In this document: positions 1 through 12,505 of the stretch, piece by piece
Layout: each line of letters starts with the position of its first letter
Numbering within the stretch: position 1 is the first letter of the stretch
Made by a program: the position numbers and the translations under genes
Notes under the pieces: generated by a model
Database searches by the model: none
What the model was told of the DNA's origin: nothing
Seen by the model: only the letters and a program-made list of their open reading frames with translations
Assembly: GCA_016342345.1 (NCBI GenBank)
Contig: JAEINO010000004.1
Span: forward strand, 79,122-143,121
Direction of reading: 5' to 3'
Length of the DNA stretch: 64,000 bases
Source: Pseudodesulfovibrio sp.
GTDB lineage: Bacteria; Desulfobacterota; Desulfovibrionia; Desulfovibrionales; Desulfovibrionaceae

Positions 1-197
1 GTCAGGTTCAGGACATGGAGACTTTTTTCCATCTACAAGGAGTGCAGACCCTTCGAGCCAGCCATGATAATCTGATGGCAACCGTGACCTATTTGCCAGA
101 AGCGGCTGATATAATGGTGAAAAGCAGTGATAAATTCGCGGCGTTAATTGAAAGGATCGGCTTGAGATCATACAGAATCAAGGAGTGGACCGGATGA
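1..197 (+). CDS. 3' end of an unknown gene, cut by the window edge
   Basis: A reading frame is open from the first bases of the window and ends in a TGA at 195-197. That stop overlaps the larB ATG as ATGA, the usual sign of translational coupling, so this is probably the last part of a gene upstream of larB. The ORF track starts it at the internal ATG at 15, but nothing marks that as a real start. The visible residues (ending RIGLRSYRIKEWTG) show no motif I recognise. It could be another gene of the lar cluster, but I cannot show that. Confidence 0.5.
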   Translation, partial: QVQDMETFFHLQGVQTLRASHDNLMATVTYLPEAADIMVKSSDKFAALIERIGLRSYRIKEWTG

Positions 198-943
198 GCC
201 TCGACACATTGCTGGACGAGTACGAGGCCGGGCGCATTACAAGAACGGATTTGAAGCGCAAATTGGTACATTCCAGTTTTGCGGATGCTGGTTGCGCCAA
301 GATAGATCACCATCGCGAGCTTCGTGCAGGTGGCCCGGAGGTCGTCTATTGCGAGGGCAAAACGCCAGAGCAGGTTGCTGCCATATTTACGGAAATAGTA
401 AGACACTCGGGGTACGCCCTTGGAACGCGGGCCAGCCAGGAGCATCATGACGCTGTTGGAAAATTTTTTGATGCCCGTTACGATTGTGTTTCCAGACTCC
501 TCTGCGTAGGAACTCCGCCTGTTGATCTTACGGGCAAGATCGTGGTTGTTTCGGCGGGAACTTCGGATTTGCCGGTGGCCGAGGAGGCTGCCGGAACAGC
601 CGAGTTTTTGGGCAATCGTGTGGATCGGCACTATGATTGCGGCGTGGCTGGCATCCATCGCCTGTTCTTCATCATGGACGATCTGGCGGATGCATCGGTG
701 ATTATAGCGGTTGCCGGTATGGAGGGAGCGCTTCCTTCGGTGATAGGCGGCATGGTTTCTCCTCCGGTCATCGCGGTTCCGACCAGTGTCGGGTACGGTG
801 CAAATTTCCAGGGTCTTGCCACATTGTTGGCCATGATGAATTCCTGTGCGCCTGGTATAGCCGTTGTGAATATCGACAATGGATTCGGAGCGGGATTCAT
901 GGCGCATAAAATCAACAAGAGAGCTGTAACGGGCGCGGTGTAG
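194..943 (+). CDS. larB: Nickel-pincer cofactor biosynthesis protein LarB
   Basis: LarB carboxylates and hydrolyses nicotinic acid adenine dinucleotide in the first step of the nickel-pincer nucleotide cofactor pathway used by lactate racemase (LarA) family enzymes. The C-terminal two thirds carry the AIR-carboxylase (PurE-like) fold signature: GKIVVVSAGTSDLPVAEEA, a conserved DCGVAGIHR segment and AGMEGALPSVIGG. The length (249 residues) is normal for LarB. I place the start at the ATG at 194 rather than the track's GTG at 185 because AAGGAG at 180-185 is spaced correctly for 194 and the ATG overlaps the upstream stop. The neighbour downstream is a LarC-like gene. No LarA or LarE is visible, though the gene to the left is truncated. 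Confidence 0.9.
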   Translation: MSLDTLLDEYEAGRITRTDLKRKLVHSSFADAGCAKIDHHRELRAGGPEVVYCEGKTPEQVAAIFTEIVRHSGYALGTRASQEHHDAVGKFFDARYDCVSRLLCVGTPPVDLTGKIVVVSAGTSDLPVAEEAAGTAEFLGNRVDRHYDCGVAGIHRLFFIMDDLADASVIIAVAGMEGALPSVIGGMVSPPVIAVPTSVGYGANFQGLATLLAMMNSCAPGIAVVNIDNGFGAGFMAHKINKRAVTGAV

Positions 944-1061
944 GGTTCCTTGAGACTCTGATTGTTCGGAATGCCTGAGCATTTTGTTGCACGAGGTTGC
1001 CGGGCTGAAAATTACCGGTTAGGTTCTGTCAGCAAATTTTCATTTTCAGAAGGAGTCGGAA

Positions 1062-1838
1062 TTGCGTTCAATCCATCTCGATTGTTCCTCCGGGGTGAGC
1101 GGCGACATGTTGCTGGCATCGTTAAGTCATGCGCTGGAAGAACTCCGTGGGCCAGGAAGCGGGTATGCCTTTTTGGAACAGGAGGTGGCACGTCTTGGCC
1201 TGGATGGTTTCGGTCTTGAGTGGTCGGAAAAAATAGTCGGTGGCATCAGGACCTTTCACGTGGAAGTTTTGCAGAAGCGGGAACAACCTCTCAGAACGTT
1301 GAGCGATCTCCTTGAAATCATAGAGAAGAGCGGAATGACAGGTCGGGCATCGGAGCGGGCCGGTCATGCCCTGCGTCTGTTGGGGGAAGCCGAAGCAAAG
1401 GTTCATGGCATGCCTTTGAATGCGGTACATTTTCATGAGATAGGGGCTGTGGATACTATTGCGGACATCGTTGGAGTCATGGTCCTTCTTGATGCTTTGG
1501 AGGCACACTCCGTGACCTGTTCACCTGTGGATCTCGGGTCGGGTTTCGTGGACTGTTCTCACGGTAGATTACCAGTTCCTGCACCGGCTTGTGCCGAATT
1601 ATCCCGAGGCCTCATCACCTTTGGTTCCGAGTGTGGAATGGAGCGGGCGACACCCACTGGGTTGGCTATCTTGCGGACTATTGTGGAAGCATGCGGGCCA
1701 CAACCCTTGGGTGAGGTTAAAAGTGTCGGTTATGGTTCTGGTTCCAGATCGTCAGACGAGCAGCCGACGTTTGTTCGGGCCTTTGTTCTGGAGACAGTTG
1801 AGGTTCCTTTGTCCAATTGTGAAGGTGCTTATGCCTGA
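1062..1838 (+). CDS. larC: LarC N-terminal-domain protein (LarC1-only nickel insertion protein)
   Basis: LarC inserts nickel into the pyridinium-dithiocarboxylate mononucleotide in a CTP-dependent reaction. The start is a TTG preceded by AAGGAG at 1050-1055; the first residues HLDCSSGVSGDML match the LarC family N-terminal signature (LDxxSGxSGDM). A conserved HFHEIGAVDTIADIVG segment and the late GYGSGSR motif also fit. At 258 residues it stops shortly after the GYGSG region, where full-length LarC proteins (about 400 residues) continue into the C-terminal CTP-binding LarC2 domain. No LarC2-like sequence such as a TNIDDM motif follows in any frame before the next gene. It is therefore a LarC1-only protein, an unusual form. 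It overlaps the DUF3431 gene by 8 bases. Confidence 0.85.
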   Translation: MRSIHLDCSSGVSGDMLLASLSHALEELRGPGSGYAFLEQEVARLGLDGFGLEWSEKIVGGIRTFHVEVLQKREQPLRTLSDLLEIIEKSGMTGRASERAGHALRLLGEAEAKVHGMPLNAVHFHEIGAVDTIADIVGVMVLLDALEAHSVTCSPVDLGSGFVDCSHGRLPVPAPACAELSRGLITFGSECGMERATPTGLAILRTIVEACGPQPLGEVKSVGYGSGSRSSDEQPTFVRAFVLETVEVPLSNCEGAYA

Positions 1839-2499
1839 CACTGTTATGATGATCATAGCCAGATACCGCGAGAATGTGTCCTGGGTACATCAGATTGGAT
1901 ATGATTACATTGTGTACGACAAGGGTGGCAATGCGTCTCCAAAGTCAATTGTCCTGCCGAATGTTGGTCGTGAGGCGCATACCTATTTTACACATATTGT
2001 CCGGGAATATGAGACGTTGGCCGGAATGAATGTTTTCTTGCAGGGTGATCCGTTTGATCACATTGATGATCGAGGTCGGGCCTCTGTGGACACGTTGCGG
2101 ACTCAGCTTGCGGAGATTGTGGAAAGAGATGTGCCGTTCAAGGGATTGGCCTGGTTCAAGCTGAAATGCGATACACTTGGGCGCCCTCATGATCTGCACA
2201 AGCCGGAAAACAAGGGACGGTGGGCTGGTTGGGGCCGGGATATCCCTGTTGGCGATGTTTTTGAGCTGCTTTTTGATGCCGAGGCCCCTGCCCGGATAGT
2301 TGCTCGTGCTCCCACTGGAAATTTCTGTGTCACGGGCGAACGAATCAGGACTCGTCCCAAAGAGTTTTACGAGTATGCCCTGAAGCTGGTTGAAAGTGAT
2401 CCTTTGGATGAAAAGAATACCGGACATGCCATCGAGCGATTGTGGCAGCACATTTTCAATGGCAACACTGCGTGGAACAAGGATAAATATGGGGCGTAA
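1831..2499 (+). CDS. DUF3431-family protein, lar-linked
   Basis: The 222-residue product shows the DUF3431 pattern: an opening IIARYRENVSWVHQIGYDYIVYDKG, then LPNVGREAHTYFTHIV and FLQGDPFDH. The family is widespread and uncharacterised; it has been likened to glycosyltransferase-type folds, but that is not shown here. I choose the ATG at 1831 (GAAGG upstream, 8-base overlap with larC) instead of the long upstream extension of the ORF track, which is a larC shadow. The overlap suggests co-translation with the LarC1 protein. It sits in the place and frame position where one might look for a frameshifted LarC2 domain, but its sequence is unrelated to LarC2. Confidence 0.75.
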   Translation: MPDTVMMIIARYRENVSWVHQIGYDYIVYDKGGNASPKSIVLPNVGREAHTYFTHIVREYETLAGMNVFLQGDPFDHIDDRGRASVDTLRTQLAEIVERDVPFKGLAWFKLKCDTLGRPHDLHKPENKGRWAGWGRDIPVGDVFELLFDAEAPARIVARAPTGNFCVTGERIRTRPKEFYEYALKLVESDPLDEKNTGHAIERLWQHIFNGNTAWNKDKYGA

Positions 2500-2523
2500 G
2501 GATTTCGTGCCGTTGTTGGCACT

Positions 2524-3777
2524 ATGCATAGCTTTATTCGGGGGCTTTTGAGCATGACCTTGCCATTGAATTTCAGGATCGCCATGTCATCCCTTTCGGC
2601 TCACAAGGTGCGGGCTATTCTTGCCATGTTGGGGGTTTTTCTTGGCGCGCTCGCCTTTACAGGTGTGCAGCACGTTTCAAAGATAATGGTCAGACAGGCT
2701 GAAATGGAGACGGAAAAACTTGGTCCCAATTTGTATTCGGTCATGGCCGGGCAGATTCGTTTTCGCAGGAGCGGTGGCGTCCGTGTGTCTGGCAGTGTCA
2801 TGAATTTTACCCTTGCCGATGCGAAAGCCGTGATTGAAGGGGTTCCGTCGGTCTTGGAGGGTGCTCCGTTCGTGTTGCGGACCATGCAGGTTCGTGGAAA
2901 CGGCAATGCCGTGAATGCCAAGGTCATGGCAACGTGGCCGAACTATCAGGGGATACGGAATTTTCATCCGGCATCAGGTCGGTTTTTTAATTGGAGCGAA
3001 GTAGACAATCGGGCCATGGTCTGCGTCCTTGGCCAAAAGATAGCTGAACGCCTTTTCGGCAGTTCCGAAAAGGCTGTTGGTCAGAGGGTCTACCTGTACA
3101 GGGCCAATTTTCGAGTCCTGGGAGTCATGGAGACCAAGGGTCGGGATGTTTCTGGCGATGATCAGGATGAATTCATGTTTCTTCCGGTAACCACTTTTAT
3201 GCGTCGCGCCAGTAATCAGCGGTGGATAAGTGGGGTGTTTTTACGGTTGTCCAAGGATGCCGGTCTTGAAGCCGTCGGTGAATCGGCGCGGTCCATACTG
3301 CGTCAGAGGCACAAGATCGAGGACGGACAGGCAGAAGATTTTAGCACGTTTTCCCCAAAGGATGCCATCAAGCTGCAACGTCAGGCCCTGGCTCTCATGA
3401 CCACCCTCGGTGCCATTACTTCATCCATATCGTTTGCCGTTGGCGGCTTGGGAATTCTTTCCATCATGATTCTGGTGGTTCGGGCTCGGCGGGTCGAGAT
3501 AGGCATACGACGGGCCGTGGGAGGGCGGAGGCGCGATATTGTCCGGCAGTTCTTGTTTGAATCAGGACTCATGGCCGGAATTGGTGGCGCGTGCGGTGTT
3601 GCGATGACTGTCATTGTCGTGACCATAGGCTGTTCGGTGGCTGGCCTGCCCGTGATCATCGAGCCTGGCAGTCTCGTGTTGACCCTCATTGGAACAGGCG
3701 TTCTCGGCATTGCTGCGGGGGCGTATCCAGCCTGGCAAGCAGCAAATATCGAAATTCTCGACGTTCTCAAATCCTGA
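2524..3777 (+). CDS. FtsX/MacB-type ABC transporter permease
   Basis: The 417-residue protein has the MacB topology. An N-terminal transmembrane helix (AILAMLGVFLGALAFTG) is followed by a periplasmic MacB_PCD-like region of about 220 residues and a C-terminal FtsX domain with three membrane segments and the RRVEIGIRRAVGGRRRDIVRQFLFES motif typical of these permeases. It likely works in lipoprotein or peptide export or signalling from the outer leaflet of the inner membrane. No ATPase subunit is adjacent in the window, so its partner must lie elsewhere. The start is uncertain: ATG 2524 as in the track, or ATG 2554 with a weak GGGGG upstream. Confidence 0.8.
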   Translation: MHSFIRGLLSMTLPLNFRIAMSSLSAHKVRAILAMLGVFLGALAFTGVQHVSKIMVRQAEMETEKLGPNLYSVMAGQIRFRRSGGVRVSGSVMNFTLADAKAVIEGVPSVLEGAPFVLRTMQVRGNGNAVNAKVMATWPNYQGIRNFHPASGRFFNWSEVDNRAMVCVLGQKIAERLFGSSEKAVGQRVYLYRANFRVLGVMETKGRDVSGDDQDEFMFLPVTTFMRRASNQRWISGVFLRLSKDAGLEAVGESARSILRQRHKIEDGQAEDFSTFSPKDAIKLQRQALALMTTLGAITSSISFAVGGLGILSIMILVVRARRVEIGIRRAVGGRRRDIVRQFLFESGLMAGIGGACGVAMTVIVVTIGCSVAGLPVIIEPGSLVLTLIGTGVLGIAAGAYPAWQAANIEILDVLKS

Positions 3778-4186
3778 CAGAAGAATATTTGATTGTGTAA
3801 TTAAGATAGTAGTTTGAAGTTTTGTATAGCCTACTATGTTTGAATGTCGCAATGGTGTTTGGGCGGTACGTGCCATGTTTTCTTGATATCTTGCGGGTTT
3901 TGATAAGTCGTTGGCTAGAACAAAAAAAGAGGGGGGATGATTTATCTGACTCAAGCTTTTTTTTGAAAAGTACAGGGACGTGGGGAAAAAAACAGCGACT
4001 GATCTTTATACACTGCCTTGCTAGTTTTCATAGAACGGACGAACAAAGACAGCTTTCGTCCTCGTTGGAATTCCTATGATGGTATTTAACGTGTGGGATG
4101 ATGGCTATGGCTTTGTCCGTAGACTCTGAATTTCTTGATGAAATGGTATACGGATTATATCAAGAGTACACCATTTGGGATTGCGC
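3778..4186. other. AT-rich intergenic region, no gene supported
   Basis: Between the permease and the lipoprotein gene there are about 400 bases of AT-rich sequence with several A and T runs. The short ORFs of the track here (3822-4079 and 4135-4338) have no convincing ribosome-binding site and no recognisable protein features. The base composition matches the AT-rich genes to the right, so this may be the left part of an acquired segment. I see no integrase, attachment-site duplication or tRNA. Confidence 0.5.
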
Positions 4187-4219
4187 AAAAAAAGGGTGAC
4201 ACAACAGAATCACCCTTTT
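4187..4219 (-). terminator. Rho-independent terminator of the hydrolase-lipoprotein unit
   Basis: A perfect 10-bp stem, AAAAGGGTGA (4190-4199) paired with TCACCCTTTT (4210-4219), with a 10-base loop. Read on the minus strand it is followed by a run of seven T residues (the A run at 4187-4193). It lies 17 bases past the stop of the lipoprotein gene. Confidence 0.85.
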
Positions 4220-4235
4220 CACTTCTGCTTGCAAG

Positions 4236-4715
4236 CTACTGTTTTAGTCCGTCGGGTATCCTGATTCCTGCTTCAACATACTCTGTTCGCATCTGCTCTG
4301 GAGATAACTGTTTGTACACTCCTTCAAGACGGGAATAGAGTCCACAGTAGCCCCACGTTTCAGCAGTAATAACTGTTAGCTGCTTTTCTTCAAACTCAAT
4401 ACGAACATGTTTCGCTTTGGGATAGTCCTCACTTGGCGTATCAACAAATTGAGCTACAACCCCCTTGCCTACAAGCTTTCCCTTTGCGATGACTTCACAA
4501 TCCGTTGAAGCCATTTCGATGGGACCGTCAGCGACATGACCACCGTTAAGGGTAATATTCACCACCTGACCATCAATCGACACGTAAGCACGAGTAAATA
4601 TCCCTCTGTGCTTATTAAGGTACCAGCCAGAAATCGTCTCTGAATTGTTTGCACACCCCGACAAGGACAGCAAGGCCAAGACAATAGTGATGAATAATAG
4701 TAGCCTGTTTATCAT
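4236..4715 (-). CDS. Lipoprotein, putative immunity protein
   Basis: The 159-residue product begins with a basic-hydrophobic signal peptide (MINRLLLFITIVLALLSLSGC) whose LSLSGC is a lipobox, so it is probably lipidated and anchored in the cell envelope. I do not recognise the mature domain; it contains two further cysteines (DCEV and GYCGLY) that could form a disulfide. The start ATG overlaps the stop of the upstream hydrolase gene as ATGA, and a terminator follows. A periplasm-facing lipoprotein encoded directly after a peptidoglycan hydrolase is the layout of immunity proteins that protect against cell-wall-degrading effectors. That role is an inference from position. The base composition is AT-rich compared with the flanking genes. 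Confidence 0.7.
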   Translation of the reverse strand: MINRLLLFITIVLALLSLSGCANNSETISGWYLNKHRGIFTRAYVSIDGQVVNITLNGGHVADGPIEMASTDCEVIAKGKLVGKGVVAQFVDTPSEDYPKAKHVRIEFEEKQLTVITAETWGYCGLYSRLEGVYKQLSPEQMRTEYVEAGIRIPDGLKQ

Positions 4716-6223
4716 TTCTTTCTCTGGCTCCTCTCCTTTTTAAGGAGTTCCAGAGCCTCTTTTCGTTCTTGGACTATTCGTTTTCGGAACCCTTGCTTCA
4801 CATTTGGAGAGCAGTCTCCGCAACGGGTAGCCCGTTCATCGTATATGGCTTCAATCAACTTTTTCTCGTAGTCTGGATGCGACTTATCAAGCCTCTTCGA
4901 TGTCTTCTCAAAACGCTCAAAAGCCTTGTTTATAAGTTTCGGTTTATGTTGTACACCCGTGGACCAAACAACATCTTTCAATGTGCTTGATTGCTGAGAC
5001 ATATCCACGCCCAACTTATTTTCAAGTTTCGCAGCAGCAGGCTTGTAGTGCGTTTCGTATATGTAAGCATGTTGGTTTTTCCTGAACTCTTCAGGATGCT
5101 TTTCTGATATTTCCTTCCATTTTGCAGAAAACTCATTTGAGCCAGGCTTCAGCCCTTCGAATTCCTTCTTCCAAGGAAAACTGTTCGAGTTGACGTACTG
5201 TTCTACAGTCCCACCTACTTTCTTGGTATCAGGAGTGACGCTCGTCATCTGATACAGACCATACGATACCCCACCGGGATCGCCTTTTCCAGAGGAAACT
5301 GTACTTACTCCTCGTCCACCAGTTTCGTATTTCTCAGACAGTTTGCCTAATTTTTGAATATCCTCAGTGGTCGGCTCAGTCTTTTTAGGTTTCACTTTCC
5401 CACGATACTGGTTGCCTTTATATATCTCATCCTGACCTTCCGGGATTTGAAGTTCAGCATTTTTCTTTTCACCAGTATCATTTATGACACCAGTGTTCTT
5501 CTCGGTATACATCTCAGTACCTTTCATCTTGAAGCCTGGCTTGGCACCCGGGATATTTTTATTCTCAGATGCTCGTGCTTTCTCAATGTCAACACCAGTA
5601 TAACTCAAATACTTGTCATACATGGCATCCGCGTTCTTCTCGTCAAACTTGGCTTCTGACATGACGTACTTGTTGATGAGATCGAAAGCAGCAGCGTCAT
5701 GGGCCTGTATGCCATTCTCGTCATTGGCACCAAGTGCACCTTTGGCGAGACGCTGCAAGCCTTTGTCGAGGACAGTGCGGGAACGCTCGTTGAGCTTGTT
5801 CAAAGCGAACTGATGCCCTTGTTGCAGGAAGTCTTTCTTGATGTCTGGCAGGGACTTCGAGAGGGCTTCGTGCCGCTTGCCACCTTTGGTGACAGTGGAG
5901 AGCACGGAGTGTTCGTAGTCGTCGTATTGCTTCTTGAGGTTGGAGGCATCTTTGGACGGCTGCTTGCCAGTGACGTTTTTCTGCCAATCGGCCAAGCCCT
6001 TGCCAAAGAAATCATGCGCTTCGTTTTCTTTTTCGACGATGGTGTTGAGCCGATCCAGGTCATGATACGCATCACGCTTCTGCTGTCGTTGTTGCTGGTT
6101 CTGATTCCTGAAGCCGATTCCCATTTCAAGAGCAGTCTTTCGCTGGCCGGAAGTGGCGTTGTCGAGCAGCTTCTTCTGCTCGTCAGGGTCAATGTTGATG
6201 AGCGATTTTCCAAAGTCAAACAT
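4712..6223 (-). CDS. Mosaic protein with VgrG-related/phage-type peptidoglycan hydrolase domain, putative effector
   Basis: The 503-residue protein has no signal peptide or membrane segment. Residues about 290-430 hold the recognisable domain: LSEKYETGGRGVSTVSSG, GGVSYGLYQM, an aromatic FPW segment and LKDVVWSTGVQH. This pattern occurs in lysozyme/chitosanase-like domains of VgrG-related and phage tail proteins; Glu300 in the YETGG motif is the likely catalytic acid. Residues 1-190 are helical, Gln/Lys-rich and unrecognised; 215-290 look like a linker. The DNA of the first 190 codons is GC-richer (dense shadow ORFs) than the rest, suggesting a joined module. A clear AGGAGG lies upstream of the ATG. 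It could be a type VI-type or polymorphic effector, or a phage remnant. Confidence 0.7.
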   Translation of the reverse strand: MFDFGKSLINIDPDEQKKLLDNATSGQRKTALEMGIGFRNQNQQQRQQKRDAYHDLDRLNTIVEKENEAHDFFGKGLADWQKNVTGKQPSKDASNLKKQYDDYEHSVLSTVTKGGKRHEALSKSLPDIKKDFLQQGHQFALNKLNERSRTVLDKGLQRLAKGALGANDENGIQAHDAAAFDLINKYVMSEAKFDEKNADAMYDKYLSYTGVDIEKARASENKNIPGAKPGFKMKGTEMYTEKNTGVINDTGEKKNAELQIPEGQDEIYKGNQYRGKVKPKKTEPTTEDIQKLGKLSEKYETGGRGVSTVSSGKGDPGGVSYGLYQMTSVTPDTKKVGGTVEQYVNSNSFPWKKEFEGLKPGSNEFSAKWKEISEKHPEEFRKNQHAYIYETHYKPAAAKLENKLGVDMSQQSSTLKDVVWSTGVQHKPKLINKAFERFEKTSKRLDKSHPDYEKKLIEAIYDERATRCGDCSPNVKQGFRKRIVQERKEALELLKKERSQRKK

Positions 6224-6506
6224 AGCCGAATTCCTCCTGGTAGGATTTTGATTGTTTATAGATCAAAAAGCCTAACACGGGTTTTCGGCTCAGGACGAAA
6301 GCGGGCATAAATGGGTACTAAAAGGACACAAAAAGCATAACTTGGCAACTTGACAGACTTTTGGAGACCGATTCTAAAATATGATCACTCAAGTTGTTAT
6401 TGGAATATTTCGAAAAGTGCATTTTAACCGGGTGAGCAATAATAATAGATAAAAAAGGTTTCAAATGAGAGTAGCAAGGTAGAGTCGAAAAAATATTGGA
6501 GGCGGT

Positions 6507-7079
6507 ATGCCGGTCGGACGTGAGGAATTCCTGGATGGAGCGCGTGAACGGTTTCGCGAGAGCGGCATGGCCGGAGTCAGTGAGATGGATATCGCGTCTG
6601 AAATCGGGATGGACAGCGAAACCGTGCAATCCCATTTTCCCGATAGAACGAGCCTCGTCGTTGCCGTTTTGCTGGAAGAGCTGGGTTCGGTTTCCAAGGC
6701 CGCCATGAAAGCACTTCCTCAGTCCCAACTTGACCTTCAGTTGAAACATCTCCTCAAAGCCCGTTTTGGGTTCTATGTCCAACACAAGCAGAGTTCCGCT
6801 TTGATACTGCGCGAGGTGATATTCAGTCGGGCTGGATGGCGGGAAACCTATGAAAACATGCTGTGGCGTTTTTCCGTGGAGATTGTTTCTCTGTTTCATG
6901 CTGCCAAGCGCAGGGGGGAAATTCGCCAGGATGTGGATGAAGCCCTCGCGGCCCGGGCGTTGGTTTCATACTATGTAACGGGCGTGCTCATGGGTGTGCG
7001 CGGTGATGCTTTTGATGATGAAGGTGTTTGCGTCTTTGTTTTTCCGCTGGTGGATTGCCTGGTGGCTTCTCTCAAATAA
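6507..7079 (+). CDS. TetR-family regulator (first of two paralogues)
   Basis: The 190-residue protein starts almost directly at the helix-turn-helix (FLDGARERFRESGMAGVSEMDIASEIGMDSETVQSHFPDR), the TetR N-terminal DNA-binding domain, followed by an all-helical ligand-binding domain. A GGAGG lies just before the ATG. It is clearly related to the next TetR gene: both share the GSV-x-KA-x-x-x-x-P segment after the HTH and an (I/L)(R/K)E(V/A)(I/L)F-x-R-(A/G)-(G/E)-W segment in the ligand domain. Its gene lacks the twin palindrome found before the second copy. It lies upstream of an RND efflux pair and may take part in regulating it. Confidence 0.85.
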   Translation: MPVGREEFLDGARERFRESGMAGVSEMDIASEIGMDSETVQSHFPDRTSLVVAVLLEELGSVSKAAMKALPQSQLDLQLKHLLKARFGFYVQHKQSSALILREVIFSRAGWRETYENMLWRFSVEIVSLFHAAKRRGEIRQDVDEALAARALVSYYVTGVLMGVRGDAFDDEGVCVFVFPLVDCLVASLK

Positions 7080-7131
7080 CAGAAAATTCGAGCTTGTTTC
7101 GGAACACTCTTGATCAAACTGGCGCAGGGTG

Positions 7132-7186
7132 TTGACAATTTTATCAGGGCTGTTTAATGAACATGTTCAGTTAATGAACGTGTTCA
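7132..7186 (+). promoter_or_regulatory. Promoter with twin TetR-type operators
   Basis: A TTGACA at 7132-7137 is followed after 17 bases by TAATGA (7155-7160), a plausible sigma-70 promoter. Two 12-bp palindromes follow: TGAACATGTTCA (7158-7169) and TGAACGTGTTCA (7175-7186), 17 bp apart centre to centre and each embedded in the repeat TTAATGAAC-N2-GTTCA. The first overlaps the -10 box. The start codon of the second TetR gene is 12 bases downstream. This is the layout of an autoregulated TetR repressor. Confidence 0.75.
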
Positions 7187-7198
7187 TGTGGAGTGTAA

Positions 7199-7816
7199 AT
7201 GAAAGAAAGTGACAGCGAGACCCTGCGGGGCCGACAAAAATCCGAGACCCGAAAGCAGATTCAGAGTGCAGCAAAGGCACTGATTATCGAACTCGGGTAC
7301 GAAAAAACAACCATGCGTGCTTTGGCAAAGTCTGCGGGCGTGGGGCTTGGTACGATTTCCTTGCATTTCAAGGACAAGAAGTCCCTTTTGCTGGCGAGTT
7401 TCTTCGAAGAGATCGGAAGTGTGGCACAGAAGGCCTTGAATTCCGTGCCTCGGGATGAGCACGTTCGTGAACAGCTTCTCTACATTTTGCGCGAAGTCTA
7501 CGGGTATTATGCCATGCACACAGATTTCTTGAGGACCGTGATCAAGGAGGCCCTGTTCATCCGTGGAGAATGGGGGGCGGTCTTTGACAGACAGATAGGC
7601 GGATACATCTGCCTTATGGGTGAGATGATCGAGGCAGGCAAGGAACGGGGTGAGGTCAAGCCGGATATTAACGGCGAGCACGTGGCAGCCATCTGTTGGG
7701 GGCTGTATCTTAATGGACTTCTTGAGGGTTTCAAGCAGGATCGGTTTGACCCCGATGCCCAGGTCGCACGAATCGAGCCCCTGTGGGAGATTGTTTTGGG
7801 CGGAGTTCTGGTTTGA
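7199..7816 (+). CDS. TetR-family regulator (second paralogue), probably autoregulated
   Basis: The 205-residue protein has a standard TetR HTH near the N terminus (TRKQIQSAAKALIIELGYEKTTMRALAKSAGVGLGTISLHFKDKKSLLLASF) and a helical ligand-binding domain. It precedes a membrane-fusion protein and an RND pump on the same strand with a gap of about 270 bases, so it is probably their local repressor. The twin palindrome directly upstream suggests it controls its own promoter. I found no third copy of TGAAC-N2-GTTCA in front of the pump genes, so control of the pump may be by read-through or from another site. Confidence 0.88.
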   Translation: MKESDSETLRGRQKSETRKQIQSAAKALIIELGYEKTTMRALAKSAGVGLGTISLHFKDKKSLLLASFFEEIGSVAQKALNSVPRDEHVREQLLYILREVYGYYAMHTDFLRTVIKEALFIRGEWGAVFDRQIGGYICLMGEMIEAGKERGEVKPDINGEHVAAICWGLYLNGLLEGFKQDRFDPDAQVARIEPLWEIVLGGVLV

Positions 7817-8083
7817 TTTTCAGGGCATATGGATATCAGTGGATTCTCATGGGTGCTGAAATTGGGTAGTTTTTTTGTATTTCAATCTGATATGTCCATG
7901 TAACGTATATTTTGTCTTTGTTGCGGGGGCCGCAATGCATTCCAATGGTTCAATAAATGGCAGAAAAGGTCAGGCCGGTGCAGTGCGAAGTCTGTATTGA
8001 TGCGGATGGTGTCCACAGATGACCTGCATCGAGCGGGCTTGTGGACCAAATTTTGTGGTAATCCTTGAAAAAGGAGTGATTGA

Positions 8084-9220
8084 ATGAGTTTTATATATAA
8101 ATTACCAATAAATTCAGGCTTTTTTGTGGTAAAAAACATAGCCTTAATATTTGTTGTAGTTCTTGTGGCCGGTCTGGCCGGCTGTGGCAATGATCGCCTG
8201 GGAGGTGATACCCAGGCCGATTCCGGGGATGATCCGGTTTCAGAAAGTTCTTCGGCTGAGGGTGTTCAACCCGAAGCCAGTCCCGTGCTACCGGTCAAGT
8301 CTTCGGAGACGTTTGTTGTCCAGTCCGCGGACCGCTGGTCCACCCTGACCGGCTTTACCCGTGCCAGAAACGCCATGACGCTGGTGACCGAAGAGTCTGG
8401 CCGAGTACACAAGGTTGTTGCCGATGTGGGTGATACCCTTGGAGAACATGGGTTGTTTGCCGAGTTGGACACGACATTTATTGAACTTGATCTGGCCGGA
8501 AATCGGGCTGATCAGCAGCGTCTCAAAAGCGATTTGAACTACAACAAGAAGGAAATGGAGCGGTATGAGGCCCTGGTCAGGGATCAGAATGCTGCCCAGT
8601 CCACCTTGGACAACAATATTCGTGCGCATCAGGCAGCCCTGCAACAACTCAGGGCCAAACAAATAGAAGAGCGCGTGCTTATGGAGCGGATGAAACGATT
8701 CTCATTGCTTGGCCCTGCGGGGTGGAAGATTGTTACTCGTTACATCGAGCCGGGCGAATGGGTCACCAAGGGCGAAAAAGTGGCTGAGCTTGGCAGGTAT
8801 GACGTGTTGCTGGTGCCATATGCTCTGACAAGTGCCGAATATCGTGCTCTCAAGGATCAGGGTGAAACCGTGGACCTCAAGCTGACCGATCTGAACAGGA
8901 TTATCAAGGCAAGGGTCATTCATGTGTCTCCCGGATTTGATCCTCAGACCCGCAAGATCAATGTTGATCTCGAAATAGCAGAAGGGGATTTTGAATTTCG
9001 TGGTGGCATTCGCACGGAGCTTAAGCTCGGTCTGCCCGATCCCGGCGGTGCTGTTATTGTGCCCGAGTCGGCCTTGGTAAAGGCATACGAAGAGTATTTT
9101 TTGATGACCCCGGATGACAATCGGGTTCGCGTGGTGCTGATGGGTGGAGCGGATGGCAACATGCGTCGGGTTTCCAGCTCGAACGTGCGTCCGGGAGACC
9201 GCTTTCTGCTTTATCCGTAG
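8084..9220 (+). CDS. RND efflux membrane-fusion (periplasmic adaptor) lipoprotein
   Basis: The 378-residue protein bridges an inner-membrane RND pump to an outer-membrane channel. A hydrophobic N terminus ends in the lipobox VAGLAGC, so the adaptor is lipid-anchored in the periplasmic leaflet. A lipoyl-like barrel half (TLVTEESGRVHKVVADVGDTLGEHGLFAELD), a helical hairpin (about residues 145-205) and the second barrel half plus beta-barrel (ARVIHVSPGFDPQTRKINVDLEI) follow in the normal order. AAAGGAGTG precedes the ATG. It is 45 bases upstream of the RND gene. No TolC-type outer-membrane gene is next to them. Confidence 0.9.
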   Translation: MSFIYKLPINSGFFVVKNIALIFVVVLVAGLAGCGNDRLGGDTQADSGDDPVSESSSAEGVQPEASPVLPVKSSETFVVQSADRWSTLTGFTRARNAMTLVTEESGRVHKVVADVGDTLGEHGLFAELDTTFIELDLAGNRADQQRLKSDLNYNKKEMERYEALVRDQNAAQSTLDNNIRAHQAALQQLRAKQIEERVLMERMKRFSLLGPAGWKIVTRYIEPGEWVTKGEKVAELGRYDVLLVPYALTSAEYRALKDQGETVDLKLTDLNRIIKARVIHVSPGFDPQTRKINVDLEIAEGDFEFRGGIRTELKLGLPDPGGAVIVPESALVKAYEEYFLMTPDDNRVRVVLMGGADGNMRRVSSSNVRPGDRFLLYP

Positions 9221-9265
9221 CAGGAAGGCTCACCATGCATTTTCCCATTCCAAGGAGTTGATATA

Positions 9266-12200
9266 ATGTCCATTGTCAAAAAGGACACTCCCGTACAGAG
9301 TCTTGTTCGGATGACACTGAGGCAGAAGGTCTTTGTCAATCTGATCTTCGTGCTACTTATGGTCGTGGGCGTGTTCTGCGTCTTTGATTTGCCGGTCGAG
9401 CGATATCCCGATATTCATCTGGGCAAGGTCATCATCAGTGGTTTCCTGCCCGGAGCCAGCCCGGACGAGGTTGAAACGCTGGTGACGCGCAAGATCGAAG
9501 ATTCATTGGAAGATCTGGACAATGTGGAATTCATTCGTTCCCGTTCGTTCCGGCAGCGCGCATCAATCACGGTTAAATTCCTGGACGATACGGACTATGA
9601 CACTTTGTATGACGAACTCAGGTTCAAAGTGTTGTCTATTCAAAATGATCTGCCGGAGGAGATGGACCCGCCCACGTTTGCCTTTATCAGGGTCAGTGAA
9701 TGGCTACCGGTGATTTCGGTCAATCTGGTTGGTGACAGGTCCAATCGTGCGCTGACGTTAATGGCCGAGGAAATGAAAATACCTCTTCAGCGGATACCCG
9801 GAGTCAAGGACGTCAAGATCAATGGAGAGTTCACGCGGGAGTTTCATGTGGCTCTGGCCCCGCAGAAGCTCATGCGTCTCGGCGTCACGTTCGATGAAGT
9901 GGGTAAGGCTCTGGAAGGGGCCAACATATCGGTTCCGGCAGGGGATTTTGTCAGTGATTCCGGCGAATACATTATTGTTGCCGATGAGAAGTTTCGGTCC
10001 CGAGACGAAATTGCGTCAACCGTTGTCCGGCGGGATGGGGATGGCTCTTTTGTGACCGTGGGCGATGTCATGAGTAGTGCCGGGATGAATTATCGCGATC
10101 CGTTTGTCGTGTCATCGGTTAATGGCAAGGACTCTGTCGCAATAAAAATAGTCAAGACGCCGGATGGCAACGCGCTGGATATCGGGGCTGAAGTGGAAAA
10201 GGTGGTGGAAGGCTTCCGATTCATGCTCGACAAGGAAGGTGTCGAGGCGATCATGACCCAGGATCAGCGCGTTTACATTAACGAGAATATCAACACGCTG
10301 GGTTCCAATCTGTTAGTCGGCATTTTTCTTGTCTGTGGTTGCATCTGGATTGTCATGGGGTTCAGGAATGCCATGCTGACGACTGTTGGTGTGCCGTTCG
10401 CGTTTTTGGTGACCATGATTATCATGTGGATCACCGGTAATTCACTCAATGAAATCACGCTGTTTTCCTTTGTGCTGGTGAGCGGAATCATAGTTGACGA
10501 TGCCATTGTGGTGGTGGAGAACATCTATCGCCATGTGCAGGAAGGCAGGGCGATTCGGGACGCGGTCATAGACGGGACCAGCGAGGTTTTTCTGCCGGTG
10601 CTGGCTGCCACTTCTACCACGGTTGCGGCCTTTTTACCCATGCTCATCATGTCCGGCTCCTCTGGCGAGTTTTTTGCGCTGGTGCCCAAGGCGGTCAGTT
10701 TTGCCATACTTGCATCCATCATCGAATGTCTGTTCATCCTGCCTTTGCATTTCATGGATTGGCCTGGTGCTCGGACTCTTGAAAAGGAGGCCCGGACCCA
10801 CTCGCGGCGTGCCTCTGATCCGAAGTCGTTGATCTGGTTGAAAAAAGTTACAGACTCTGTATTGCAGCTTTCCATGCGTCACAAGTGGAAGAGTCTGTTT
10901 CTGGTTTTTGGAGCTTTTGTCATGGCAGTCATTATCCTTGGCGTATCGGTTTCGGGGGTCATGCCTCTTTTGCGCATCAAGTTTTTCCCTGACGAATACA
11001 ATCTTTATTACGTGTCCATGGAAGGCCCGGTGGGGACAGGTGTCTATGTATCATCCCAAAAGGCCAAGGAGATTTCGAGTTTTGTAAAGAGTTTCGGTCC
11101 AGGTTCCACCAAATCCTGTTCTGCCCTTGGCGGCATGGATGTCAACGATGACTACGAGACCGTGTATGGTTCTAATCGAGCTATTGTCACGGTGGAGCTT
11201 CCGGCCAAGGATGAACAGGAATTTATCGAGAATCCTGACAACGATCCGGTGCTTTTGCTCGAGATTGTGCGCGAAAAGCTCAACCCCTTTGCCAAGGATG
11301 GCTGGAGCTTCCGGGTCTGGCCTGAAAAGAGCGGACCGCCGGCAGGCAAGGACGTGAATATTCGTGTTCTCGGTTCTGATCAGGAATCCGTGCAGGGCCT
11401 TACGGAGAATGTCTTTGGCTGGGTCAAGAACAACAAGGATATAGAGCCATATCTGATTGATTTCGGGCGTGATACCGGTACGGATAATCGTGTTTTCCGG
11501 TTCAGGCCGGTTCCGAGCCTTGTCTCAGAATACGGATTGACCCCGGCTCAGGTTGTTTCGCTGGCCGGGGGCATTCTGGATGGTCGGTTTGTTGGCAAGT
11601 TCCGTGTGGCTGACGAGGATATTGATCTGCGAATGAAGATCGACAAGCAGTATTTGAAGCAGCCTGAGGATGCCTTGGATATACCCATTCTGGAGGATGA
11701 TGAAGGGCCGGTGCGCGTGGGGGATCTCGTGGAGGTGGAAACCTACCGCGAATCAGGACAACTCAACCGCTTTCAGGGGCAGCGGGCTGTAACCCTGACG
11801 GCCAATATCCAGGCTGGTGCGCCGATCAACGCGGCGAGCATCGTGCATGATGTGCGGGCCTTTTATGGGACCATTCAGGACAAGTACCCCGGTGCGACCC
11901 TGGGCTTTGCCGGAGAATACGAGTCCACAGGGCGTTCCTTTACTTCACTCATGTATGCGTTTTGTATAGCAATAATGATAATTTACATCATTCTTGCCTG
12001 TCAATTCCAGTCGTATACTCAACCTGTTGTCATTTTATCGGCCGTGGCATTTGCCTTGACCGGGGTGGTTTTTGGCACTTTGTTTACCCGCTCCCTGTTC
12101 ACGATCAACAGCTTTATTGCCACAGTGGGTGTCACCGGGGTTGTGGTCAATGACTCCTTGGTACTGCTTGATTTCATCAATCGTCTCTATAAGGCAGGAT

Positions 12201-12505
12201 ACAGTCGCGCAGAAGCTATCCGCGAAGGAGTTAGCATCCGTTTGCGGCCGATTCTGTTGACCACGTTGACCACCACACTGGGCTTGTTGCCCATGGCCTT
12301 GGGCATTCCCTATTATTCAGTTGTGTGGGGTACCATGGCCACCACGTTTGTCACGGGCCTGTGCGTTGCCACTACATTGACTCTGTTTATCATGCCCATT
12401 GAATGGGATCTCTTGATGCGCAGGCAGGAGCGCAAAGCCGCAAAGCGATTTGCAAAGCTCGAAAAGCAGGAAGACGATACCGGAAAAACGCTGCTTCAGA
12501 GTTAA
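9266..12505 (+). CDS. RND-family efflux transporter (HAE1/AcrB type)
   Basis: The 1079-residue protein is full-length for the AcrB/HAE1 group. It shows the two-fold repeat: TM1 near residue 25, a large periplasmic porter loop with LPGASPDEVETLVTRKIE, a membrane block containing VSGIIVDDAIVVVENI (the two Asp residues of the proton relay in TM4), a second periplasmic loop, and a C-terminal block with TGVVVNDSLVLLDFIN and RLRPILLTTLTTTLGLLPMALG. It pumps hydrophobic drugs, detergents or metabolites out using the proton gradient. AAGGAG stands in front of the ATG. It forms an operon with the adaptor; the substrate cannot be told from sequence. Confidence 0.93.
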   Translation: MSIVKKDTPVQSLVRMTLRQKVFVNLIFVLLMVVGVFCVFDLPVERYPDIHLGKVIISGFLPGASPDEVETLVTRKIEDSLEDLDNVEFIRSRSFRQRASITVKFLDDTDYDTLYDELRFKVLSIQNDLPEEMDPPTFAFIRVSEWLPVISVNLVGDRSNRALTLMAEEMKIPLQRIPGVKDVKINGEFTREFHVALAPQKLMRLGVTFDEVGKALEGANISVPAGDFVSDSGEYIIVADEKFRSRDEIASTVVRRDGDGSFVTVGDVMSSAGMNYRDPFVVSSVNGKDSVAIKIVKTPDGNALDIGAEVEKVVEGFRFMLDKEGVEAIMTQDQRVYINENINTLGSNLLVGIFLVCGCIWIVMGFRNAMLTTVGVPFAFLVTMIIMWITGNSLNEITLFSFVLVSGIIVDDAIVVVENIYRHVQEGRAIRDAVIDGTSEVFLPVLAATSTTVAAFLPMLIMSGSSGEFFALVPKAVSFAILASIIECLFILPLHFMDWPGARTLEKEARTHSRRASDPKSLIWLKKVTDSVLQLSMRHKWKSLFLVFGAFVMAVIILGVSVSGVMPLLRIKFFPDEYNLYYVSMEGPVGTGVYVSSQKAKEISSFVKSFGPGSTKSCSALGGMDVNDDYETVYGSNRAIVTVELPAKDEQEFIENPDNDPVLLLEIVREKLNPFAKDGWSFRVWPEKSGPPAGKDVNIRVLGSDQESVQGLTENVFGWVKNNKDIEPYLIDFGRDTGTDNRVFRFRPVPSLVSEYGLTPAQVVSLAGGILDGRFVGKFRVADEDIDLRMKIDKQYLKQPEDALDIPILEDDEGPVRVGDLVEVETYRESGQLNRFQGQRAVTLTANIQAGAPINAASIVHDVRAFYGTIQDKYPGATLGFAGEYESTGRSFTSLMYAFCIAIMIIYIILACQFQSYTQPVVILSAVAFALTGVVFGTLFTRSLFTINSFIATVGVTGVVVNDSLVLLDFINRLYKAGYSRAEAIREGVSIRLRPILLTTLTTTLGLLPMALGIPYYSVVWGTMATTFVTGLCVATTLTLFIMPIEWDLLMRRQERKAAKRFAKLEKQEDDTGKTLLQS

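Follow-up and report, generated by a model that had tools for sequence, protein, structure and literature searches.

A probable polymorphic toxin–immunity cassette of Pseudodesulfovibrio shares its upstream region with a domesticated podovirus-like particle

What purpose is served by a peptidoglycan hydrolase gene that stands, with a lipoprotein gene behind it, among ordinary genes of a bacterial chromosome? This question is raised by positions 4,236–6,223 of a 64-kb stretch of Pseudodesulfovibrio sp. DNA (contig JAEINO010000004.1; hereafter the window, with positions counted from its first letter), in which the initial annotation had proposed an orphan effector module, possibly linked to a type VI secretion system (T6SS), made of a hydrolase and of an envelope-anchored lipoprotein conferring immunity to it. 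Our best reading is that such toxins are co-produced with a domesticated phage particle and probably carried by it: the pair would be a polymorphic toxin–immunity cassette belonging to the regulon of a podovirus-like particle resembling gene transfer agents (GTAs), a proposal to which we assign a probability of roughly 0.6. It is built on the modularity of the toxin, its type-specific partners, its conserved catalytic residues and an upstream region held in common with the particle genes, each of them established by computational comparison of sequences.

The two open reading frames (ORFs) and their ATGA overlap were confirmed as annotated (table 1), and so was the VgrG-related hydrolase domain, which covers positions 1–183 of the 183 of the Pfam profile T6SS_VgrG3-like_C with 171.5 bits for a cut-off of 27, and which matches the hydrolase domain of VgrG3 (PDB 4NOO and 4NSO) with E-values of about 6e-29 to 9e-29. 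Both acidic residues of the VgrG3 hydrolase are kept, the second lying 15 positions after the first, and Glu300 is the predicted catalytic one. No other family reached its cut-off in a Pfam scan of the 503-residue protein, in which neither a VgrG, PAAR or MIX region nor a MuF domain (PF04233) was found. As for the partner, a lipobox recognized by eye (LLSLSGC, with Ala at position +2) agrees with the proposed lipoprotein; its sequence profile has no match among PDB sequences, and its structural model is a lipocalin-like beta barrel whose fold matches have low template modelling scores (TM). A hairpin of −16.7 kcal/mol followed by a U run is consistent with the terminator said to close the pair, and it is not listed by a simple terminator scan. 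The locus had also been described as an AT-rich patch, which applies to the linker, the hydrolase domain and the partner gene (43–45% GC, with a GC content at third codon positions, GC3, of about 0.44) and not to the first 225 codons of the toxin, host-like in composition (50% GC, GC3 of 0.63). This break after codon 225 was the first sign that the gene is modular.

Table 1. Features of the toxin–immunity locus (window positions) and, in the last row, convergent genes of another C-terminal type (positions within the loci named).
Feature	Position	Strand	Evidence
Putative regulon promoter region	6225..6376	(-)	nhmmer E=5e-41; sole significant match in the 64-kb window
Polymorphic toxin gene, 503 aa	4712..6223	(-)	ORF; Pfam and PDB profile matches
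N-terminal module, residues 1-225	5549..6223	(-)	alignment; AF2 model; Foldseek against BFVD
Low-complexity linker, residues 226-290, GC 43%	5354..5548	(-)	composition
Muramidase domain PF21277, residues 292-487	4763..5350	(-)	Pfam E=2.4e-50
Glu300 codon, predicted catalytic	5324..5326	(-)	aligns with the KYE Glu of 4NOO/4NSO
Asp315 codon, second conserved acidic residue	5279..5281	(-)	alignment with 4NOO/4NSO
Putative immunity lipoprotein gene, 159 aa, lipobox Cys21, predicted lipocalin-like beta barrel	4236..4715	(-)	
ATGA overlap, toxin stop and immunity start	4712..4715	(-)	ATG 4715-4713, TGA 4714-4712
Terminator hairpin and U run	4186..4220	(-)	folding, z=-3.6
Convergent membrane-type genes of the EWEKxTGNS type	L042:8973-9428; L046:3694-4152; L055:7266-7730; L056:6826-7287; L061:6453-6926		

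Labels G and L followed by a number denote genomes and loci, G000 being the genome of the window and G001 a two-contig Pseudodesulfovibrio genome. Far from being an orphan, the window gene is one of seven loci of G000 that carry the same N-terminal module (six full-length and one fragment), and the module recurs in nine further genomes of the genus (G001, G002, G009, G010, G022 as a fragment, G026, G029, G030, and G033). In alignments, the copies are 65–87% identical to that of the window, whereas their C-termini differ; between the G000 paralogues, a nucleotide identity of about 77–80% extends over the module and the region upstream of it and largely ends after the module. Outside the genus, nothing convincing was found in 348 genomes of the order and 395 of the phylum, a weak match in G058 having no module-like protein at its site.

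Behind this single module we distinguish six C-terminal types, five of which resemble cell wall hydrolases: the VgrG3-like muramidase, a GH24 phage lysozyme (PF00959, E=1.9e-39), a CHAP-like domain and an M15-like peptidase (both below cut-off), and a third lysozyme-like type recognized by eye; the sixth belongs to no family. The search for homologous pairs that the initial annotation had called for returned 26 toxin–partner pairs, and in all 26 the C-terminal type adjoins its own family of envelope-targeted partners. The lipocalin-like family of the window, whose members bear either plain signal peptides or lipoboxes, thus accompanies every muramidase-type toxin (7/7), while the GH24 type is paired with the LprI lysozyme-inhibitor family (PF07007; 4/4), the type without family with a convergent hydrophobic membrane-type protein (7/7), and the CHAP-like, third lysozyme-like and M15-like types with partners of their own (3/3, 3/3, and 2/2, respectively). 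LprI has been named elsewhere as a candidate immunity protein beside wall-targeting T6SS effectors (PMC12135965; PMC8867033). Moreover, partners remain intact next to frameshifted toxins (L052, L055, and L063), and LprI genes occur without a matching toxin (L041 and L062). Because partners are type specific, survive beside broken toxins and can stand without a toxin, the assignment of the pair to a polymorphic toxin–immunity family is well supported at the sequence level, as is the immunity role proposed for the envelope-anchored partner.

Three observations pertain to these cassettes or their domains. The convergent membrane-type genes behind the type without family, which bears an “EWEKxTGNS” motif (table 1), recall the arrangement of the immunity genes of pore-forming colicins. 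At L053 (4256–6489), a muramidase-type cassette is followed by a partial regulon motif together with broken “EWEK” fragments, which suggests that cassettes are stacked and displaced. Finally, a separate protein of 330 residues in G000 (L043:7712–8704, plus strand; hydrolase match at C89:60041–60685) has a VgrG3-like hydrolase domain with relatives in 48 of 59 sampled genera, a spread that may mark a conserved housekeeping wall enzyme and not a toxin.

How, then, would such toxins leave the cell? The N-terminal module belongs to no Pfam family and shows no signal peptide by eye; no PHROG family matched it better than E=0.046, phage records and viral contigs gave no match, and plasmids gave one chance match. 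Its AlphaFold2 (AF2) model, computed from an alignment of 22 rows, is all-helical (predicted local distance difference test, pLDDT, 82; predicted TM, pTM, 0.59). When this model was compared with the viral structures of BFVD by Foldseek, the best matches were large phage proteins (probability 1.00, TM of 0.5–0.64, best E=3.6e-3), several of them annotated as LT_GEWL, TtsA-like GH108, SLT, lysozyme or internal virion protein. The top PDB match was clearly below these (probability 0.77, TM of 0.34), and the PDB matches, to spectrin and similar folds, were set aside as generic helix matches. The resemblance to wall-hydrolase or internal-virion-type proteins of podophages is suggestive at the level of predicted models, and it is on account of these matches that our search turned to a podovirus-like particle.

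Of the 33 genomes of the genus, 32 carry a T7-type portal gene (PF12236), which is well conserved and, with few exceptions, single-copy; across the order, it was found in 15 of the 36 genera sampled. The particle loci further encode a terminase (PF03237), a capsid protein (PF19821), a T7-like tail fibre (PF03906), a T7-like scaffold slightly below cut-off (PF05396), tail-tube-like proteins and a small membrane protein that resembles a holin but matches no Pfam family; we assigned the names tail tube and holin from gene order and appearance. Unlike the genes of a prophage, those of G001 are scattered along the chromosome (at about 235, 300, 333, 406, and 940 kb), and the portal operon is flanked by rlmN and a sodium-dependent symporter gene in both G000 and G030. 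Structural and packaging genes of a tailed phage are thus dispersed and form no compact prophage; we call the particle GTA-like, its genes having the appearance of those of GTAs. In addition, G000 harbors a separate podovirus-like prophage (L115, C43:210000–229000) with its own portal and a 665-residue protein that follows a small 149-residue gene behind a tail gene; the stretch of it that we examined contains no regulon motif.

What ties the toxins to the particle is the region upstream of their genes. About 150 bp 5′ of every module gene are conserved across paralogues and species, in the window as a TGTCAA box, tandem YCCNTTTT-like repeats of about 11 bp, a GAAAACC..GTTAGGC core, an inverted repeat in the leader and a ribosome-binding site (RBS). 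From its position and conservation we infer that this region is a promoter. A profile built from the toxin upstream regions alone also matches 5′ of the particle operons, at the correct place and on the correct strand, the region in common measuring about 100–150 bp. The genome-wide search, which relied on such a sequence-only model trained on toxin upstream regions so as to avoid bias, returned 25 sites in G000, 24 of which precede toxin or cargo genes (7 N-module, 8 Rhs, and 4 MuF-like genes) or particle genes (one site each for the capsid, the portal operon, the holin-like/terminase, the tail-tube-A and the tail-tube-B genes). All 14 sites of G001 fit as well, with two N-module genes, seven Rhs genes and the same five particle operons once each, and the best match in 4.4 Mb of Markov-1 control sequence had an E-value of 0.96. 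In other genera of the family, the motif recurs 5′ of MuF-like, Rhs, terminase-like, tail-tube-B and M15-like cargo genes. At many sites, tandem YCCNTTTT-like units about 11 bp apart separate the TGTCAA box from a GAAAACC..GTTA/GGTAT core, an architecture that might be expected of an activator-dependent promoter.

Several further features of the regulon can be described. The inverted repeat of the 5′ leader lies just before the RBS in the window (6225–6290, minus strand) and in the paralogues, in which it reads GGATGTTTGAT...ATCAACATCC. The one G000 site without a recognizable gene behind it (L170, C58:47136–47249) is a few kb from dnaA and dnaN and is probably the remnant of a lost cargo. Many regulon Rhs genes are followed by a protein of about 165–195 residues with an N-terminal hydrophobic segment (“NTNWFQ..F..RFY..I..APFD”; L149, L157, L168, L169, L172, and L181), a candidate immunity or accessory protein, and two sites (L150:7670–7533 and L158:6350–6257) precede proteins that share another N-terminus (“W.KYADG..EP.R....SWNHT”), possibly a further cargo class.

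On this basis, we propose that activation of the particle regulon would yield the toxin together with capsid and tail; that the helical N-terminal module would load it into the particle; that the particle would eject it into a recipient's envelope; and that the muramidase would there cut the peptidoglycan, and so kill, unless a matching lipocalin-like lipoprotein protected the recipient. At even odds, in our estimate, the wider picture is that of a long-kept GTA-like particle of Pseudodesulfovibrio and related genera that is armed with polymorphic toxins, injected with DNA or instead of it, leaving as survivors only those kin that carry the matching immunity; such a particle would combine toxin injection by a short, non-contractile tail with a GTA endowed with built-in kin discrimination.

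Other carriers were considered and discarded. The absence of phage, VgrG and T6SS genes noted around the pair holds for positions 1–12,500 of the window, read gene by gene, and residence in a prophage was rejected because the flanks are ordinary genes and the module has no match in phage records. Contractile sheath genes occur in 9 of the 33 genomes of the genus, in a distribution that does not track the module; VirB4, taken as the mark of a conjugation-type type IV secretion system (T4SS), occurs in four, of which only G000 has the module; and the module-bearing G001, G026, G030, and G033 have neither. The sheath protein VipB/TssC (PF05943) was found in none of the 33, an outcome that led us to abandon the T6SS link and that answers the suggestion to look for T6SS genes elsewhere in the genome. 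That the catalytic domain is that of Vibrio cholerae VgrG3 would fit an orphan T6SS effector–immunity pair, but with no sheath gene in the genus, no VgrG, PAAR or MIX region in the protein and an upstream region shared with particle genes, we consider this origin very improbable.

In the main rival reading, the toxins are bacteriocins set free by particle-induced lysis, as colicins are when their producers lyse, and the N-terminal module is a receptor or translocation domain. The region upstream of the toxins, being the same as that of the holin-like/terminase operon, would also fit release by lysis, and the lack of a visible signal peptide also agrees with it, as does the existence of wall-active bacteriocins with periplasm-side immunity such as pesticin and colicin M. 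We nevertheless regard it as unlikely, given that the predicted fold of the module resembles phage wall-hydrolase or internal virion proteins, that no colicin is among the PDB matches listed (TonB/Tol boxes were not searched for) and that other cargo of the regulon is MuF-like, MuF being a family of phage heads, if with a weak score (E=0.017 against PF04233 for one member, below cut-off). Less probable again is that the hydrolases are ejection lysins with which the particle penetrates the wall, their partners guarding the producer from early lysis without any antagonism. Such a function would fit the frequent presence of wall hydrolases in phage internal virion proteins, the hydrolase-like character of five C-terminal types out of six, and the tail operon of the particle, which encodes a 158-residue protein and no large wall hydrolase between tail tube B and the fibre; yet antagonism is indicated by the number of diverse copies, as many as seven in one genome, by the one-to-one correspondence of partner families and by partners that stand alone. 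Moreover, the promoter is common to Rhs toxins, and most particle-bearing genomes of the genus lack the module.

This last distribution, several of the genomes in question having Rhs or MuF-like cargo instead, also weighs against carriage of the toxins by the particle, as do the fact that the shared promoter would also fit free release, the modest Foldseek E-values obtained from an all-helical model with a pTM of 0.59, and the negative outcome of an hhalign comparison between the module and one prophage protein at the equivalent gene position. In addition, a search for a sigma-70-like promoter belonging to the immunity gene itself gave none, so that the protection of cells that do not make particles is left unexplained.

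With regard to known systems, the inhibitor of VgrG3, TsiV3, is periplasmic. The window toxin has a muramidase domain homologous to that of VgrG3 with both acidic residues, but it is not fused to VgrG and its partner is without a profile match in the PDB. Effectors of the Xanthomonas X-T4SS carry a C-terminal secretion domain, whereas the constant part is N-terminal here, in a genus where VirB4 and the module hardly coincide. They are alike in being wall hydrolases with envelope-located immunity proteins (PMC10933484). The constant N-terminus, exchangeable C-terminal toxins and adjacent cognate and orphan immunity genes are those of polymorphic toxin systems (Zhang et al. 2012, PMC3482391), but the module falls in no described trafficking class that we found and its promoter region is shared with a phage-like particle. 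GTAs, including the Dd1 activity of Desulfovibrio (Rapp and Wall 1987, as related in PMC11841831 and PMC6854486) and the podovirus-like FpGTA reported in Faecalibacterium (PMC12946183), likewise have phage structural and packaging genes that are dispersed, widely conserved and commonly controlled, as far as these accounts go; the accessible literature mentions no toxins among their cargo. The nearest published idea concerns temperate phages, for whose MuF polymorphic toxins delivery by the tailed-phage particle has been proposed (Jamet et al. 2017, PMC5576092). MuF-like cargo appears to belong to the same regulon here; however, the genes of MuF toxins lie within temperate phages of the Firmicutes, in many cases in the packaging module, whereas the present cargo is dispersed in a Gram-negative chromosome and linked to particle genes by a common promoter region, and the window toxin itself has no MuF domain. 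We found no literature joining GTAs to Rhs or other polymorphic toxins, in a search outside which most subscription papers and preprints lay, so that novelty is unproven.

In practical terms, the promoter signature offers a means of listing particle genes and unknown toxins across the genomes of this family. GTAs are generally seen as carriers of DNA, and their benefit to the producer is disputed. If our reading is true, a common promoter of GTA-like genes and toxin–immunity genes would give the particles a second, selfish use, namely the killing of non-kin, and T6SS, extracellular contractile injection systems (eCIS) and tailocins would be joined by a delivery route that is non-contractile; such killing would also help to explain why these particles have been retained over the long term.
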